Shown piece by piece: positions 6,113 to 19,446 of a stretch of 27,724 nt of DNA. The notes beneath the pieces are model-generated. The model ran no database searches. It was not told the origin of the DNA and saw nothing but the letters and a program-made list of their open reading frames with translations. The stretch covers positions 1-27,724 of IMG/VR virus record IMGVR_UViG_3300028365_000013. One strand, 5' to 3'. The stretch is from a virus. A program made the position numbers and the translations under genes. The number at the start of each line of letters is the position of its first letter. The first letter of the stretch is position 1.

Positions 6113-6876
6113 TGGCAAACTTATCAAAATCAAGAAAAAACAAATATCATCTAATATACAAAACTACAAATTTAATTAACAGTAAGGTTTATATAGGCGC
6201 ACACTCTACTAACGACATTAACGATGGATACATGGGTAGTGGAAAAATGCTACACTATGCAATTAAAAAATACGGTGCAGAAAACTTTAAAAGAGAAATT
6301 TTGCATCTGTTCGATTCTCCTGAGGAGATGTTCGAAAAAGAAAAAGAAATTGTCACTGAAGAATTTGTTAGCAGGTCTGACGTTTACAACATTGTAACTG
6401 GAGGTTTCGGAGGATTTAATAAAGGATCAAAGAATCTTAGACATATTACTAATACCAACACAGGCGAAGTTATAGCAGTTGACAAAATTAAATTAAAAGA
6501 ATTCTTAAACAATGGTTGGTTTTTAGGAGGAGTAGAACCGTCTAACAAAGGAAAGGTTTATGTTTATAAAGGTAATAACCGAATAGCAATAGATTCTCTT
6601 GAAGTAGACAAATACCTTAAGGAAGGCTGGCAGTTGGGTTATGCCAAATCTCCTACTAAAGGAAAAATATGGATATACCATAAAATCAAAAATAGATATA
6701 CTTTATGCGAAGAAGCTGAACTTGAAGATTATATAAATCAAGGATGGATTAAAAAGAAGTGGGCACCAATTAAAAAAGGATCAGTTTGGATTAATAAAGA
6801 AGGACAAAGGAAAAGAATAGATAAAGATTTATTAGACGAATATTTATTATTAGGATGGACTAAAGGCAGAAAATAA
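6112..6876 (+). CDS. GIY-YIG homing endonuclease with C-terminal repeat domain
   Basis: 254 residues from ATG 6112, which has an AAGGGAAG ribosome site. The N-terminal GIY-YIG nuclease domain shows LIY (14-16), YIG (27-29), GSGKMLHYAIKKYG (about 43-54), a Glu-rich helix (about 71-84) and YNIVTGGFGG (92-101). The C-terminal half consists of about four copies of a roughly 30-residue unit of the form GKxWIxxxxxxxxIxxxxLxxYLxxGWxxG. Such units act as DNA-recognition modules in phage-borne homing endonucleases. The gene is much more A-rich than its neighbours, is on the opposite strand, and sits across the uvdE promoter, all consistent with insertion of a selfish free-standing endonuclease gene. 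No intron is seen around it. Confidence 0.92.
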   Translation: MANLSKSRKNKYHLIYKTTNLINSKVYIGAHSTNDINDGYMGSGKMLHYAIKKYGAENFKREILHLFDSPEEMFEKEKEIVTEEFVSRSDVYNIVTGGFGGFNKGSKNLRHITNTNTGEVIAVDKIKLKEFLNNGWFLGGVEPSNKGKVYVYKGNNRIAIDSLEVDKYLKEGWQLGYAKSPTKGKIWIYHKIKNRYTLCEEAELEDYINQGWIKKKWAPIKKGSVWINKEGQRKRIDKDLLDEYLLLGWTKGRK

Positions 6877-6879
6877 AAT

Positions 6880-7098
6880 TTATACTTTACCTGCTAGTAT
6901 TTTAAAGATTTTATAATACGTATTCTTACATTGTTGTAAGGCCCAATCCAGTTGTTTTGCTGGCATGTCGTCGACAACCAAGTCAATATCCTTTTCTAAG
7001 TTATTATTTGAATACATCCTTTTGAACATCAAACGGTTGTGATCGTCTAGCTTAAATAGGATGCGCTTGATTTCAGATCTCTTTTGTTTTGGTGTCAT
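6880..7098 (-). CDS. Small basic protein of unknown function
   Basis: 72 residues, Lys/Arg-rich and probably helical (KRSEIKRILFKLDDHNRLMF, then DMPAKQLDWALQQC). No membrane segment or known motif. No good ribosome site precedes the ATG at 7098; the glycosyltransferase stop is 16 bases upstream, so coupling is possible. It ends 3 bases from the convergent GIY-YIG stop. Confidence 0.65.
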   Translation of the reverse strand: MTPKQKRSEIKRILFKLDDHNRLMFKRMYSNNNLEKDIDLVVDDMPAKQLDWALQQCKNTYYKIFKILAGKV

Positions 7099-7114: not shown

Positions 7115-7912
7115 TTATTTCCAATTTTGAAGAGGCCATGCATCAATACAATCGTGGATGTTAGGTTCGCCATGAAACACTGCTATACTAGTATCTGGCA
7201 AAATAGTCGGATTACCTGGTGATTTAAATGTGCGCTTGCCGTTGACTATTACAAGTTCCTGGCGTCCGCGCATTTCCCATTTGTAACTTTGCATCCATTC
7301 GTCAGGCCAAAACGCATAATCTTTTATGTTCTTGTACATAAAGTCTTGATCCCCAGGATATCTTCGTGTATGGACTTGTATATTTGAAGTAAAGTCTTTG
7401 TAAAGTGCATTGTGTGTGCCTGTAGTAACTCGAAATACACTGCTGTTCATCCTGTCCCAATTTTGTCGGACTTGGCGGTTGAAGTCTCTAATGATCAAAA
7501 AGTTGTTGTTTGGCTTGTAGGTAAACAGTTTATCGATACTTCTAAAAATAATCAAATCTAGGTCTAAAAACAAAACAGTTCCGTCAAACGGCAGATCGCT
7601 GCTGAGAAAGTAAGGCTTGTACCACCATCCTGTTACAGGCAGATCAGGCAAGGACTCTATTCTAATATTTGGATCAATGCCCTTGCTGTTTTCAGTAAAG
7701 CAAACAAACTCATGATCCACACTGAGATTTCGTTTAACCATGTTGTACAAGTTGTTGACATATTCTGGGCTGTACTTTGTACCCCACTTTAGACAGACGA
7801 CATATCTTTTGCAGTCGGCTACCAAAGGAAGGCCTGCTCTAACACTGGCCTTCCTTTGTCGCTTTTCGTCCTTGGTTTCAGTCAATGGAAAAGATTGCAC
7901 TGTTCGCGCCAT
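7115..7912 (-). CDS. Glycosyltransferase-like protein with DxD motif
   Basis: Up to 265 residues. YVVCLKWGTKYSPEYVNNLY (about 37-56) resembles the first Rossmann strand and helix of GT-A fold transferases. FLDLDLII (115-122) contains the DxD motif that binds metal and sugar nucleotide. GDQDFM (187-192) and FHGEPNIHD (246-254) match the acceptor and C-terminal motifs of GT8-like proteins. The likely role is sugar transfer to a phage or host acceptor. Start choice is uncertain: ATG 7912 overlaps the QueD-like gene by 35 bases and places an 11-bp hairpin inside the first 30 codons; the first strand begins only near residue 36, and a TTG at 7825 is the only start-like codon just ahead of it. Confidence 0.8.
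   Translation of the reverse strand: MARTVQSFPLTETKDEKRQRKASVRAGLPLVADCKRYVVCLKWGTKYSPEYVNNLYNMVKRNLSVDHEFVCFTENSKGIDPNIRIESLPDLPVTGWWYKPYFLSSDLPFDGTVLFLDLDLIIFRSIDKLFTYKPNNNFLIIRDFNRQVRQNWDRMNSSVFRVTTGTHNALYKDFTSNIQVHTRRYPGDQDFMYKNIKDYAFWPDEWMQSYKWEMRGRQELVIVNGKRTFKSPGNPTILPDTSIAVFHGEPNIHDCIDAWPLQNWK
7824..7857 (-). terminator. 11-bp hairpin just downstream of the QueD-like gene
   Basis: Perfect stem AAAGGAAGGCC / GGCCTTCCTTT with a 12-base loop, 21 bases past the stop at 7878. On the minus strand the 3' arm ends in CCTTTGG, a weak U-run. It may terminate or attenuate transcription, or control translation of the glycosyltransferase whose longest frame contains it. Confidence 0.55.
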
Positions 7913-8327
7913 GTTCGGAACACTCTGCGCTTACACACCAGCAACGGTCAAGTGTTGCCTCGCGAATAAGCTTATCAGCAAATAAAAACGCATGTTCTGC
8001 AAATTTCTCTGCTCCTACACCGTTGAATACTCTTATCTCAGCCAATCCCAATTGTTGTAATTCAAGAAACTTGTACAAGAATGGATCGTCTTGGTCGATT
8101 GCAGTCTTGTGATCAAAGTTATCTTCTAGCCATGCCTTTAATGGTTTGAGACCACCAAAGTCCACAGCCCAATTTTTATTATCAAGATTGTTACATCCAA
8201 ATATAAATTTAAATCCCAAACTGTATCCGTGTAGTAGATGACAATGCGAATGGTCTGCGTTGGGTTGTCGAAACACTGCCGATAAGCCAATTTGGTGTCC
8301 GTATGTTTTAGTTGAATAAAATGCCAT
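7878..8327 (-). CDS. QueD / 6-pyruvoyl-tetrahydropterin synthase-like enzyme
   Basis: 149 residues from ATG 8327, which has an AGGAG ribosome site (an upstream in-frame ATG adds 18 unrelated residues). The fold family makes 6-carboxy- or 6-pyruvoyl-tetrahydropterin from dihydroneopterin triphosphate. Seen here: a His-rich motif DHSHCHLLHGYS (25-36) carrying Cys29 and the zinc-type histidines 28 and 33, VDFGGLKPLKAWLEDNFDHK (substrate-pocket helix and Asp-His) and a C-terminal SAECSEHGANSA with the family's Glu. Marine T4-like phages carry such genes. Whether it feeds queuosine-type modification or pterin supply cannot be decided; no other queuosine genes are in the window. Confidence 0.85.
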   Translation of the reverse strand: MAFYSTKTYGHQIGLSAVFRQPNADHSHCHLLHGYSLGFKFIFGCNNLDNKNWAVDFGGLKPLKAWLEDNFDHKTAIDQDDPFLYKFLELQQLGLAEIRVFNGVGAEKFAEHAFLFADKLIREATLDRCWCVSAECSEHGANSAIFSID

Positions 8328-14999: not shown

Positions 15000-15028
15000 A
15001 ATTTAACACATTTCTTGTGATGTGTCAA
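15000..15028 (-). promoter_or_regulatory. Sigma70-like promoter ahead of the coiled-coil gene and tRNA-Ser/Asp
   Basis: TTGACA (15023-15028), 17-base spacer, TAAATT (15000-15005). The -10 ends 7 bases before the ATG at 14993. Confidence 0.6.
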
Positions 15029-15708
15029 CGACTAAGTAATTCATTGGCCATCTGATGGTTTGTTTCTGAGTGACCTTGTTCGTCTGCTCTTACCTTGAGT
15101 ACAACGTCTCTTAGTGTTGCGGATTGGCTTAACTTGTAATAATCAATTGCAATTTGTGGCGCAGGCACGTTTTCGACTGTGCCCACATCAATTTCTGCAA
15201 GATACTGAGTATAACTTATAACAGCTTCTTCTTCAAAGTATCCTACCAGTCGATGTGCAGTTTTTGGAAACAGAGCGTACATTACAAAATAGAAATGCCA
15301 AAATAGAAATTGTGCTAGCAACACCAAGCATCTTTCGAAGCGACTAGGCTGTGCAATCTCAATAAAGATCATGAGGTGCATGCGTTCGTTTTCTGCTTCG
15401 TCCAGCAGCACCTTGATCCACTTTCGGTCATCGGGCGCCATGTTTCGTAGACTTCTTAGGTGATTCCACATTCCTGCAACCATTCCAGGAACACCAGCAA
15501 CTGTTTCAAGTACAACAGCACGGTGTCCATAACGTTTGGCAAAAAAGGTATCAGCAAACCATCTAAAAACTTTGGTTAACCCTAGCGCAATGTGGTCGGA
15601 AATGTTTTGTGGTTCTGTATGCTTAAACTCTAACAATTGCTTTTCTCTTCTTCTTCTTGCGTGTCTTATCAAGTTCTCTTTGGAGCTCAAGGTTGTAGCT
15701 ATCAACAT
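15025..15708 (-). CDS. Diiron alternative / plastoquinol terminal oxidase (AOX/PTOX)
   Basis: Up to 227 residues. All diiron ligand motifs of the membrane-bound alternative oxidase family are present: LETVAG (Glu68), NERMH (Glu108, His111), FEEEAV (Glu160) and DEQGH (Glu210, His213). The enzyme moves electrons from quinol directly to oxygen, bypassing the cytochrome chain. PTOX genes are known auxiliary metabolic genes of cyanophages; here the host and hence the quinone are unknown. The N-terminal ~25 residues from ATG 15708 overlap a small membrane-protein gene by 86 bases; a TTG around residue 25 with a purine-rich run before it is an alternative start. Confidence 0.93.
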   Translation of the reverse strand: MLIATTLSSKENLIRHARRRREKQLLEFKHTEPQNISDHIALGLTKVFRWFADTFFAKRYGHRAVVLETVAGVPGMVAGMWNHLRSLRNMAPDDRKWIKVLLDEAENERMHLMIFIEIAQPSRFERCLVLLAQFLFWHFYFVMYALFPKTAHRLVGYFEEEAVISYTQYLAEIDVGTVENVPAPQIAIDYYKLSQSATLRDVVLKVRADEQGHSETNHQMANELLSR

Positions 15709-15822: not shown

Positions 15823-16464
15823 TTAATCTTCGTTGTGTTCGTCTTTAATGGTTCTAGATGATTGATTACAATCACCAAACGGAATGCCATCAATGTGAAC
15901 TAAAACACCCAGCTTGTTAGCAAGGTTCGCTATTTCAATAATTGCAATGTCTGGAAATGCAACAAGTGGAAGGTTGTTTGTATTGTAACTTGTTGTCATG
16001 TAGTCTTCCTTGGTTTCTGTTGTCCGGTTATCGTACTCGACAAGACCTTTCAAATTAATATCATCTTTCATCAATCGAGCCAACGCCGTGAGCTCTGTAC
16101 GGTAACGACGCATAATAGCATTTTGTGCTGTACCATGGTGGTAGCCATTTTTGGCTTCAAGCTGCTTGACTCGACTAATTTCCTCATCTAAGTCAGTGAT
16201 CATATCTTTAAGATTTTTCATCGTAGATTCCAATGGTAATTGAGGCAAACTTGCCAATTGTGTCTGAGTGATTGTGATTGAACTTTTTGCCGCAACTGTC
16301 AGAATGCGTTCTTTGTTTGCAAGAGTTTCTAATGCGTTGATTTCATCCTCTAACTCAACAGTAACGTCAAATCCATGTTCACTTAGAAATTTGTATAGAA
16401 GAGCAGTAACAGTAGTCTTCCCCATTCCAGCGACAGCAGTTACGTTAATGTTAATATCTGACAT
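15823..16464 (-). CDS. P-loop NTP-binding protein of unknown role
   Basis: 213 residues from ATG 16464 (AAGGAAA ribosome site). A Walker A motif AVAGMGKT at 10-17 fits the pattern [AG]x4GK[ST] and follows a beta strand (ININVTAV). A charged coiled-coil region (about 80-115, including DLDEEISRVKQLEAKNGYHH) and a C-terminal strand-rich part follow. The longer frame to 16533 starts inside tRNA-Met and is not credible. No Walker B was assigned with certainty. It could be a small kinase-like or chaperone-like NTPase. Confidence 0.7.
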   Translation of the reverse strand: MSDININVTAVAGMGKTTVTALLYKFLSEHGFDVTVELEDEINALETLANKERILTVAAKSSITITQTQLASLPQLPLESTMKNLKDMITDLDEEISRVKQLEAKNGYHHGTAQNAIMRRYRTELTALARLMKDDINLKGLVEYDNRTTETKEDYMTTSYNTNNLPLVAFPDIAIIEIANLANKLGVLVHIDGIPFGDCNQSSRTIKDEHNED

Positions 16465-16483
16465 AAAGTTTCCTTTATAAAGT

Positions 16484-16561
16484 TGGTTGCGCGGGCAGGA
16501 TTCGAACCTACGACCTTTGAGGTATGAACCCAATGAGCTGACCGGACTGCTCTACCGCGAC
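16484..16561 (-). tRNA. tRNA-Met (CAT) with initiator-type signatures
   Basis: 78 bases with encoded CCA. Anticodon loop TTCATAC (CAT). Three features typical of bacterial initiator tRNA are visible: an unpaired 1-72 (G-A, with 2-71 T-C also unpaired), a purine-pyrimidine A11-T24 pair in D stem GAGC/GCTC, and three consecutive G (29-31) in the anticodon stem facing C-T-C. Discriminator A, T arm GTAGG/CCTGC. Elongator Met or Ile2 tRNAs normally lack these. Confidence 0.9.
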
Positions 16562-17020
16562 ATAAAGACAATTTAAAAAAAACAGTTACTGAATATTTCA
16601 TTACTCTATTTACATATACGAGCAATGTGGGTTAGTGCTTAGTGTGTTAATCAACTGCTTTATTAAAAGTATCAAACTTTGTTTCCTTAGGTTGAGATTA
16701 CACCTTAGGATGGAAGTCTTTGGACCTTACCGTAATCCTTGCGAGGTTAGTTAATCCGTTATCCACATACCAGCCGGACAGCTTATGTATGTATCTTCCA
16801 ACGCTGCCTTTTTTAGCGTGTGGCGTTTCACGCATCATATACTGCTACTCGTCTATCGATCCTACGTTAGCCTTGCGAGCTATTTGGATCCGCTAAGATC
16901 CGACGTTATATTTCCAAACAAACACGTCTGCCTTGCGAGCTTCTGTGCGCCATATTCTACTAGGTAGTATGGCATTAAGCGTCTTTAACAGTACACTGGA
17001 GCAGACTCTTGCATTTTAAT

Positions 17021-17083
17021 CAAAGTTGGATTTGAACCAACACCGATTCCAGAAAAAGAATTGCTCTACCAGAGAGCTATTTG
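17021..17083 (-). pseudogene. Degenerate tRNA-like domain inside the candidate giant RNA
   Basis: Good T arm (GTTGG, loop TTCAAAT, CCAAC) and D arm (GCTC/GAGC), but only four acceptor pairs (CAAA/TTTG) and an anticodon stem that closes on a 6-base loop. No CCA. Either a decayed tRNA or a structural tRNA-mimic module. Confidence 0.6.
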
Positions 17084-17610
17084 CAACCTACTATGATGTG
17101 CTACTCCTGTTGCTTCATACCTTGTTAGATACAAAATACAACACATCATCTGTTTTTCACCTTGCGGGCTAATAAACCTTACTTCAAGTCTTGGGTATAT
17201 TAATTAACCTTCAACTCTTGTAATGCTGCGTTGCCTTTCCGCGCGAACGGTCAGACTATGCAGCTACCTGTTAGTAATCAGCAATCATTAGTTTGGTACA
17301 TCATAGCTAAACCACCACAGTCTATTAACACTCACCGATCGGCTCCGTGTATATCCTTTCGGACTATAATACTAACTTACTGCCTACCGCCTTTCTACGG
17401 ACGGACTGCACCTACGAACTAGTCGGTTGCAGTTAACTCAGGCTTGTATAGATGGACAATATAAGAGCAAGCTCTTATAGTGCGGAAGTTTATAGGAAAA
17501 CTTCCTTTTATCACATTGCTGTGACTACCCTATCAACAAACACCCGAGGATGCCTGTTGCAAGCGGACTACACTCCGCAAATCTTTTTAGTACGTTTAGT
17601 TCTTACTAGC

Positions 17611-17639
17611 AGCGTAACACATGTTTAACAGCGTGTCAA
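17611..17639 (-). promoter_or_regulatory. Promoter P3 of the 16.6-17.9 kb RNA region
   Basis: TTGACA (17634-17639), 17-base spacer, TACGCT (17611-17616). It lies in a ~50-base direct repeat (17601-17651) nearly identical to 17838-17888. Confidence 0.55.
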
Positions 17640-17847
17640 CTACTTTAATTTATGTTCTATGAAACCATTGGTTTCATACTTTAAGTAGGAAGTTAACCGC
17701 TCGAATTTTGTGATTACACAAGAATAAGATTCTTGCCACTCGTCGTTTTGACCTATTTACTCTCCTATGACACTTCCCTGAGACTCTGCAATCAATAGTT
17801 CTGTATGTGTTATACTCTGCAAATAGAGCAGCTTACTTCTTACTAAC

Positions 17848-17876
17848 AGTGTAACACATGTTTAACAGTGTGTCAA
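17848..17876 (-). promoter_or_regulatory. Promoter P2 of the RNA region
   Basis: TTGACA (17871-17876), 17-base spacer, TACACT (17848-17853), inside the second copy of the direct repeat. Confidence 0.6.
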
Positions 17877-17936
17877 CTACTTTAATTTTATTTGTAAAAG
17901 CATCATCAACAACGTGTTAACTAACTCTATATAAAC

Positions 17937-17965
17937 ACTATAGCACTAGTTAACAACGCTGTCAA
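17937..17965 (-). promoter_or_regulatory. Promoter P1 of the RNA region
   Basis: TTGACA (17960-17965), 17-base spacer, TATAGT (17937-17942), close to sigma70 consensus. A perfect 16-base palindrome (17976-17991) sits 10 bases upstream and could be an operator. Confidence 0.75.
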
Positions 17966-18068
17966 TAACTTTTTAGAAATAAGCTTATTTCCAGTCTATG
18001 ACTGCTTACAACTTACCGCCATTGCTGACTGGGCCACATACTTGATTTCAAGAGTGCCTGATATTTTA

Positions 18069-18091
18069 CAACCCTGGGCCTAAAGTAGGGT
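18069..18091 (-). terminator. Hairpin after the small fibre-domain gene
   Basis: CAACCCT / AGGGTTG (7 bp) with an 8-11-base loop just past the stop at 18102; no T-run, so termination is uncertain. Confidence 0.4.
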
Positions 18092-18101
18092 TGACGTGAT
18101 A

Positions 18102-18413
18102 TTATGGGTTCCAGTATCCCATTTCTCCAGTTGTTGGATTGTAAATAGTGTAGAAGAAACCTGTGGGCAGTGTGCTAGTTGGTGCTGTACCTGTGGTGTT
18201 TTCTCTAACTGGTTTGATGACTAATATATCTTCAACTGTGTTTTGTAGCACACCACCAGTTGCATTAATGACAATACTATTTGCTGCTTGAGCGTCCTGT
18301 CCAGTAAATGCACCAATTGCTATTGACGCTGCGCCTTGGTTAATTCTGCCTGCTTCAAGAACAGTTGCACCTGTGGCCATAGTGTGTTTTCCGTATAATA
18401 CTCTTCCTGACAT
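18102..18413 (-). CDS. Small fibre-type virion domain protein
   Basis: 103 residues. The SIAIGAFTGQDAQAANSIVI segment resembles the repeated head motif of trimeric adhesin/fibre beta-rolls, and VEDILVIKPVRE followed by YTIYNPTTGEMGYW is the typical end of phage tail-fibre proteins. As a stand-alone short gene it may trimerise as a virion decoration or fibre tip. A GATAAATA late box lies 21 bases upstream (18434-18441), consistent with late expression. Confidence 0.7.
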   Translation of the reverse strand: MSGRVLYGKHTMATGATVLEAGRINQGAASIAIGAFTGQDAQAANSIVINATGGVLQNTVEDILVIKPVRENTTGTAPTSTLPTGFFYTIYNPTTGEMGYWNP

Positions 18414-18433
18414 GTTCTGATATGTGTTTTATA

Positions 18434-18441
18434 TATTTATC
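18434..18441 (-). promoter_or_regulatory. T4-type late promoter box
   Basis: GATAAATA on the minus strand ahead of the fibre-domain gene at 18413. Confidence 0.5.
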
Positions 18442-18462
18442 AGAAGCATTAGAGATATGTGT

Positions 18463-18536
18463 TGGTGCCCTCGGGGAGAATCGAAATCCCGTCGACGGAT
18501 TACTAAACCGTTGCTAAACCACTCAGCTACGAGGGC
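18463..18536 (-). tRNA. tRNA-Thr (anticodon reads AGT)
   Basis: 74 bases with CCA. Acceptor GCCCTCG/CGAGGGC perfect. Anticodon loop TTAGTAA gives AGT. The 31-39 pair is T-T and the 53-61 pair T-C, so two stem ends are open. A34 is rare in bacterial Thr tRNAs; a second, normal tRNA-Thr (TGT) lies at 23764. Discriminator A. Confidence 0.75.
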
Positions 18537-18540
18537 AATT

Positions 18541-18630
18541 TGGTATCAGTGAGGGAATCGAACCCTGCTTGGATAATTGTGCTATAACGCCTGTAGTAGC
18601 ACACACCGGTTAAACCTAACCAATACTGAC
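18541..18630 (-). tRNA. Class II-sized tRNA of uncertain identity
   Basis: 90 bases with CCA; 6 of 7 acceptor pairs, D stem GGTT/AACC, T arm AGGG/CCCT (4 bp) with loop TTCGATT. The anticodon region does not close on a 7-base loop; the best reading is a TGT/ACA stem with an 8-base loop containing GCT. Discriminator A argues against Ser. Possibly decayed or unusually folded. Confidence 0.55.
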
Positions 18631-18640
18631 ATAGGTAATT

Positions 18641-18899: not shown

Positions 18900-19446
18900 A
18901 GAAATCATCAAATTCATCATCCAGGTCGATCTCCTGGCTACTGCCACCTGTGTCATATGCTTTGTAGTAATATTCGTTGGGCATCAAAACTCTCACATCT
19001 GGTAATACCAGTTGTGCCAGCAGCAATGTTCTGTCACTGATTTCAGTTACATGCCAAGCTGTGCCACATCCGCCACCGAAGCAATGAATTGAGCCATGGG
19101 CCCGACCTTTTAAAAATTCTTTAAGCTTGTAACCAGCTGACGTGATTATGCGGTTGACCCGTTTTTTACCGCTTAGTCTTTCTGCATCATCCTCGGTGAG
19201 TGTTGTAATCTCAGCACAGTTATCGTTGCCAATGGTAAGTAAACATCTCTTGATTTTGATGCTGCCCTTGGTGCCTGGATTGTCCGGAGTTTCTTTTGTG
19301 CTCCATGGCAATTCACAAGTCACGTGGTCGACGTAAAATGTCTGGCCCTTGGTTTTCACAGCCCACATTGGGATGGTTGGGTCTGTTAGGTGTCCTTTGT
19401 TAAAGTGGAACACCAAATCTTTGCATGCTATTTCTACCTATGACAT
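18889..19446 (-). CDS. Unknown phage protein with an in-frame TAG at codon 3
   Basis: From ATG 19446 the frame reads M-S-TAG-VEIACKDLVFHFNKGHLTDP and then continues open to 18889 (185 codons plus stop). The ATG has an ideal AGGAG site (7-base spacing) and a perfect TATAAATA late box at 19486-19493, so 19446 looks like the true start. The protein has a Gly/Cys-rich centre (HCFGGGCGTAWHV) and an acidic tail (EIDLDDEFDDFYEN). Without readthrough only a TTG (19416) or GTG start would serve, with no ribosome site. Function not recognised. Options are amber suppression, a null mutation or a sequencing error. Confidence 0.75.

Follow-up and report, generated by a model that had tools for sequence, protein, structure and literature searches.

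We asked what is encoded by the gene-poor interval 16562-17965 of a viral DNA (IMG/VR record IMGVR_UViG_3300028365_000013; the analysed stretch of 27,724 nucleotides is referred to as the window) and whether the tRNA-like module within it serves as a tRNA. A preliminary description had proposed a giant structured RNA in a phage tRNA cluster, either a member of the GOLLD or ROOL families or a new class. The setting was as described: ARAGORN called 16 tRNAs in the window. Other genes include those for a ClpP-like head maturation protease, a DNA ligase and a homing endonuclease. An 11.6-kb match at 99.98% identity links the window to L030, a viral contig of 251 kb in which GOLLD was also found; the window is thus a piece of a large phage. 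A cyanophage origin was tested by looking for psbA in the 251-kb contig, and none was found. Positions 15025-15705 (-) of the window encode an alternative oxidase (Pfam AOX, 275.5 bits); of 50,697 phage records, only that of Phage C48C1 contained a relative, at 59.9% identity. A tRNA-Thr called by ARAGORN at 18463-18536 (-) has the anticodon AGU and therefore A at the wobble position, which is unusual in a tRNA-Thr of bacteria or phage. Both ARAGORN and Rfam missed a cloverleaf-like fold at 18539-18631 (-), whose closing stem has 7 bp and precedes a CCA, and whose anticodon arm is enlarged.

The family of the RNA was evaluated by running Rfam over the whole window at relaxed thresholds. RF02032 (GOLLD) was the sole large-RNA family returned: it matched 17149-16689 (-) over model positions 1-416 of 416 with a score of 179.4 bits, as compared to a gathering score of 150. 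No match to the ROOL or HEARO models was obtained up to E = 10 in 16400-18450. All of the relatives run against Rfam (18/18) exceeded the GOLLD gathering score. Further features of the family were found as well: a predicted length of ~918 nt, in the range above ~800 nt, and a variable linker separating the two regions (variable tRNA-like columns ~562-660 of the alignment); covarying structure in the 5' and 3' regions; and a viral record with tRNA genes nearby. It is as good as certain that the RNA at this locus is an ordinary member of GOLLD, one of hundreds already known; of the families first proposed, GOLLD held and ROOL and a new class did not. The coordinates of the features are summarized in the table.

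Features of the GOLLD locus in window coordinates
Feature	Position	Strand	Basis
tRNA-Met(CAU), downstream, same strand as the RNA	16484..16561	-	ARAGORN; Rfam 51.1 bits
GOLLD RNA gene, predicted whole RNA ~918 nt	16685..17602	-	alignment of 31 GOLLDs (A1), covariation, fold z-score
Terminal hairpin with the nearly invariant GTAATCTCA motif	16688..16702	-	A1; helix 44, 100% of cells paired
3' region conserved in all GOLLDs, linker included	16689..17149	-	Rfam RF02032 model 1-416, E = 3.7e-49
Degenerate tRNA-like domain within the linker, with an acceptor stem of 4 bp, an irregular anticodon loop and no CCA	17017..17086	-	Rfam tRNA
GOLLD 5' region	17150..17602	-	homology to relatives; helices 1-23 with two-sided changes
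56-bp direct repeat, copy 1, carrying the proximal promoter	17596..17651		repeat comparison
Proximal promoter TTGACA-N17-TACGCT, TG before the -10	17611..17639	-	position shared with promoters of relatives
56-bp direct repeat, copy 2, carrying the second promoter	17833..17888		93% identical to copy 1, 237 nt apart
Second (middle) promoter TTGACA-N17-TACACT	17848..17876	-	duplicate of the proximal one
Distal (third) promoter TTGACA-N17-TATAGT (11/12), not part of the 56-bp repeat	17937..17965	-	promoter scan

Covariation was evaluated in relatives that were viral contigs fetched by a GOLLD 3' motif and by a 5' motif. Their alignment (A1) comprised 31 sequences and 1030 columns at a mean identity of 63%, and the RNAalifold consensus contained 200 base pairs in 44 helices. 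Counted separately, 96.1% of the cells were paired, versus 75.2% in shuffled and 34-42% in slid alignments. Two-sided changes were present in 163 of the 200 pairs, as compared to 111.8 in shuffled and 59-76 in slid alignments; the consensus structure was drawn from A1 itself and thus has an advantage over the slid alignments, yet two-sided changes still far outnumbered those in the shuffles. The covariation score was 0.619, versus 0.217 ± 0.005 in shuffled and at most 0.094 in slid alignments, and none of 500 shuffles scored as high. Covariation across related phages was therefore decisively present, and it extended into the 5' region, for which Rfam has no model. That this region lies outside the model, and that this phage carries a private insertion of ~30 nt, could be taken to favour a new giant-RNA class, or ROOL or HEARO; the full-length RF02032 match over threshold, the lack of ROOL or HEARO matches and the homology of the 5' region throughout the set make such a reading exceedingly improbable, and these candidates were ruled out by the RF02032 match together with the covariation.

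GNRA-type loops (GCAA, GAAA) recurred and were conserved in A1, in agreement with the GNRA-like capped stems noted earlier. As GTAATCTCA served to pick the motif-chosen loci, its conservation there is partly due to selection. An isolated hairpin at 19200-19217 (+), GTGTTGTAATCTCAGCAC, resembles the GOLLD terminal hairpin; there was no GOLLD match around it, and the likeness is possibly due to chance. GOLLD-like genes at L161:6475-6915 and L205:11653-12050 have the promoter, the 5' region and the terminal hairpin and lack the linker together with most of the 3' region. In L161, no GOLLD match exceeded the Rfam gathering score. These genes can be read either as deletion relics or as cap-only RNAs. 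A bacterial genome contig, L333, contains a tandem pair of GOLLD 3' regions (6587-7030 and 7558-7996), one of which exceeds the gathering score. An exact-pattern scan for the GOLLD 3' motif in genome contigs otherwise returned mostly chance matches, L333 being the only genome locus to match the profile.

The extent of the RNA was established from the alignment and the upstream sequence. Distant relatives matched the window from 16682 to about 17404-17460 using blastn and, after alignment, up to a hairpin near 17575. This hairpin is the first conserved one of the 5' region and is followed in A1 by the private insertion, itself a hairpin. Based on the aligned relatives up to ~17575 and the proximal promoter, the RNA was placed at about 17602-16685, its start being inferred from the promoter and its end set by the conserved terminal hairpin. 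The 918-nt strand 17602-16685 folded at -276.8 kcal/mol (z = -5.3; 0/20 shuffles as low), and the only ORFs of at least 60 aa inside the region were two of 60 and 63 aa on the plus strand, antisense to the RNA. The proposal of a gene-free, highly structured minus-strand RNA was thus borne out, but the RNA occupies only part of 16562-17965: the conserved portion starts near 17600 and ends near 16685, and the predicted length, ~0.92 kb, is somewhat shorter than the 1.2-1.4 kb predicted on the basis of the distal promoter. The ~360 nt at 17603-17965 are upstream promoter DNA outside the RNA body, and 16562-16684 is a spacer between the GOLLD RNA and tRNA-Met, in which a generic terminator scan found no terminator. 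Counts from the generic terminator and promoter scans were at chance or little above it.

All three of the TTGACA-N17 promoters reported in the preliminary description are present, but their number is not above chance: the generic scan yielded 7 promoter-like sites versus 5.3 ± 2.3 in shuffles. Near the proximal-promoter position, relatives have 12/12 consensus promoters (L065, L082, L091, L018) or 11/12 matches (L116, L138, L039, L211). On the strength of this shared position, the proximal promoter is the one most likely to start the predicted GOLLD RNA. Its -10 element, TACGCT, is weak, so the start could lie further upstream. Between the promoter duplicates, the ~200 nt at 17640-17842 (-) folded better than shuffles (z = -3.3) and may possibly be a separate small RNA.

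The tRNA-like module was recovered as a partial Rfam tRNA match at 17083-17021 (-) of 38.1 bits (model 4-67 of 71); ARAGORN called no tRNA at this position of the window. The domain sits between the two strands of the linker-closing stem. Of the features of a functional tRNA, the D, anticodon and T arms were found by the Rfam match and as helices 26-28 of A1, the window copy keeping the D and T arms and having an irregular anticodon loop, and the anticodon stem being kept in relatives. The 7-bp acceptor and 3' CCA were lacking: the acceptor stem of the window copy is CAAA/UUUG.

A tRNA-like domain was detectable in the linker of 30 of 38 GOLLD loci. None of the 30 had a full 7-bp acceptor, versus 244 of the 338 tRNAs that were parsed elsewhere in the same loci, outside GOLLD, although the parsing mis-registers some tRNAs and about 28% of these controls scored <7. 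Similarly, a CCA end was present in 2/30 linker domains versus 303/338 of the other tRNAs, and a cruder acceptor-end count gave 0/30 versus 287/361 controls; given the relatedness of the sequences, neither the acceptor nor the CCA counts represent independent events. The acceptor was 4-6 bp in most relatives and near-complete in L063, L163 and L176. By contrast with the acceptor, the D, anticodon and T stems were 90-97% paired in A1, with two-sided changes in every pair. The anticodons reported by ARAGORN corresponded to Lys, Arg, Leu, Ser, Ile, Glu and Gly, together with non-standard ones. Although an enzyme can add CCA, the acceptor and CCA counts give good support for reading the linker domain as a mimic that takes no part in translation, and not as a tRNA.

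The linker domain was kept in 25 of the 31 aligned GOLLDs. On a tree built from the RNA without its linker, presence or absence of the domain changed 5 times, and at least 4 of these gains or losses must fall on strongly supported (starred) branches. The label was not clustered beyond chance (178/500 shuffles as low), indicating that the domain comes and goes. Pairwise comparisons revealed bodies more similar than their linkers: 97.3% versus 69% identity for L103/L174, 92% versus 37% for L082/L045, and 87% versus 29% for L118/L116. The close pairs L121/L122 and L116/L138 share the same linker. In many cases the linker domain evolves more quickly than the shell, and repeated gain or loss of the domain has occurred.

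Based on the abovementioned data, we consider it fairly probable that the locus specifies a promoter-driven, cage-forming GOLLD RNA of ~918 nt with a tRNA-like, probably non-translating, passenger in its linker. A large tRNA-rich phage would transcribe this RNA from the minus strand using at least one strong sigma-70-type promoter. Extrapolating from the one solved relative, env-38 (PMC12286853), copies of the RNA may assemble into a closed 14-mer cage in which the 3' regions would form rings and the 5' regions, by analogy with the cryo-EM structure, would be cap domains, the linker lying inside. On that view, the lumen would hold the tRNA-like domain as a tethered passenger. With an acceptor of 4-6 bp and no CCA, the domain should be excised and charged inefficiently; the RNA would accordingly stay in one piece, and the elbow of the tRNA would remain on display in the cage. 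We hypothesize that this elbow acts as bait or anchor for a factor that recognizes tRNA bodies, such as the ribosome, a tRNA enzyme or a tRNA-cutting nuclease. More tentatively, this branch of GOLLD may possess a dedicated tRNA mimic that is under selection, escapes processing through its shortened acceptor and is quickly swapped between some near-identical cages. If so, the fast exchange of a selected mimic would fit bait for a host tRNA-targeting factor.

The main rival holds that the same GOLLD RNA carries a functionless, decaying tRNA-gene insert, the shell alone performing the work of the cage. The strong degradation of the window copy, in its anticodon loop and acceptor, is consistent with such an insert, as are the absence of the domain from 6/31 sequences, the repeated flips of its label on the tree and the different kinds of linker within near-identical shells. 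A neutral remnant would nevertheless be expected to decay equally in every stem, whereas the pairing and two-sided changes persist in the D, anticodon and T stems, most of the aligned sequences retain the domain, and close relatives swap D stems, for example GTCT/AGAC and GCCT/AGGC, in an otherwise shared background. This stem-specific conservation speaks against a functionless insert, which we regard as unlikely. The covariation of the D, anticodon and T stems could in part be a trace of distinct real tRNAs that were captured and later decayed.

It is also conceivable, if quite improbable, that the linker holds a genuine phage tRNA, with GOLLD as the precursor from which it is cut out for use in translation. 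ARAGORN detects a cloverleaf in relatives, the GenBank entries of DSS3_MAL1 and MD18 annotate the domain as tRNA-Arg, and the locus lies in a tRNA island. However, most neighbouring tRNAs have the full acceptor and CCA that the linker domains lack, excision would cut the cage monomer, the anticodons drift, and the window copy is not called by ARAGORN. Judging from these sequence features, the domain most likely does not serve as a tRNA in translation. Tethered-mimic cargo is instead favoured by tRNA bodies that are kept while acceptor ends are lost (30/30), a combination that argues against ordinary tRNA cargo and renders the question of GOLLD cargo testable by processing, charging and pull-down experiments. 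Among the papers compared, none joined 'GOLLD RNA' with 'tRNA-like'; an earlier study reportedly covers GOLLD in Mycobacterium tRNA arrays. The pattern of acceptor loss may be new, and we do not claim priority.

Finally, we compared the locus to known systems. Cryo-EM revealed env-38 GOLLD to be a hollow, closed homo-14-mer cage with a disordered linker in its interior; in other GOLLDs, expression rises at lysis, and phage tRNAs, which are sometimes located in the linker, have been proposed as possible cargo of the cages (PMC12286853). The window RNA resembles GOLLD (RF02032, env-38) over the whole 416-position model, with a conserved 3' region and a less conserved 5' region, and in its length of >800 nt, linker position, phage tRNA-island setting and tRNA-Met neighbour. 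It differs in its acceptor-truncated linker domain, the ~30-nt hairpin insertion near the 5' end and the duplicated promoter. ROOL, which also forms cages with a variable inner linker (PMC12286853), is likewise a giant phage RNA near tRNA islands, but the window has no match to its covariance model. The linker domain shares with tRNAs the D, anticodon and T arms and a TTC-type T loop, and differs from them in its 4-bp acceptor, lack of CCA and embedding in a larger RNA. The GOLLDs of the roseophages DSS3_MAL1 and MD18 (160.5 and 169.6 bits), whose linker tRNA-like domain is the one annotated as tRNA-Arg, are about 70% identical to the window at the DNA level over part of the 3' region only; tRNA-Met lies upstream of GOLLD in these phages and downstream in the window.
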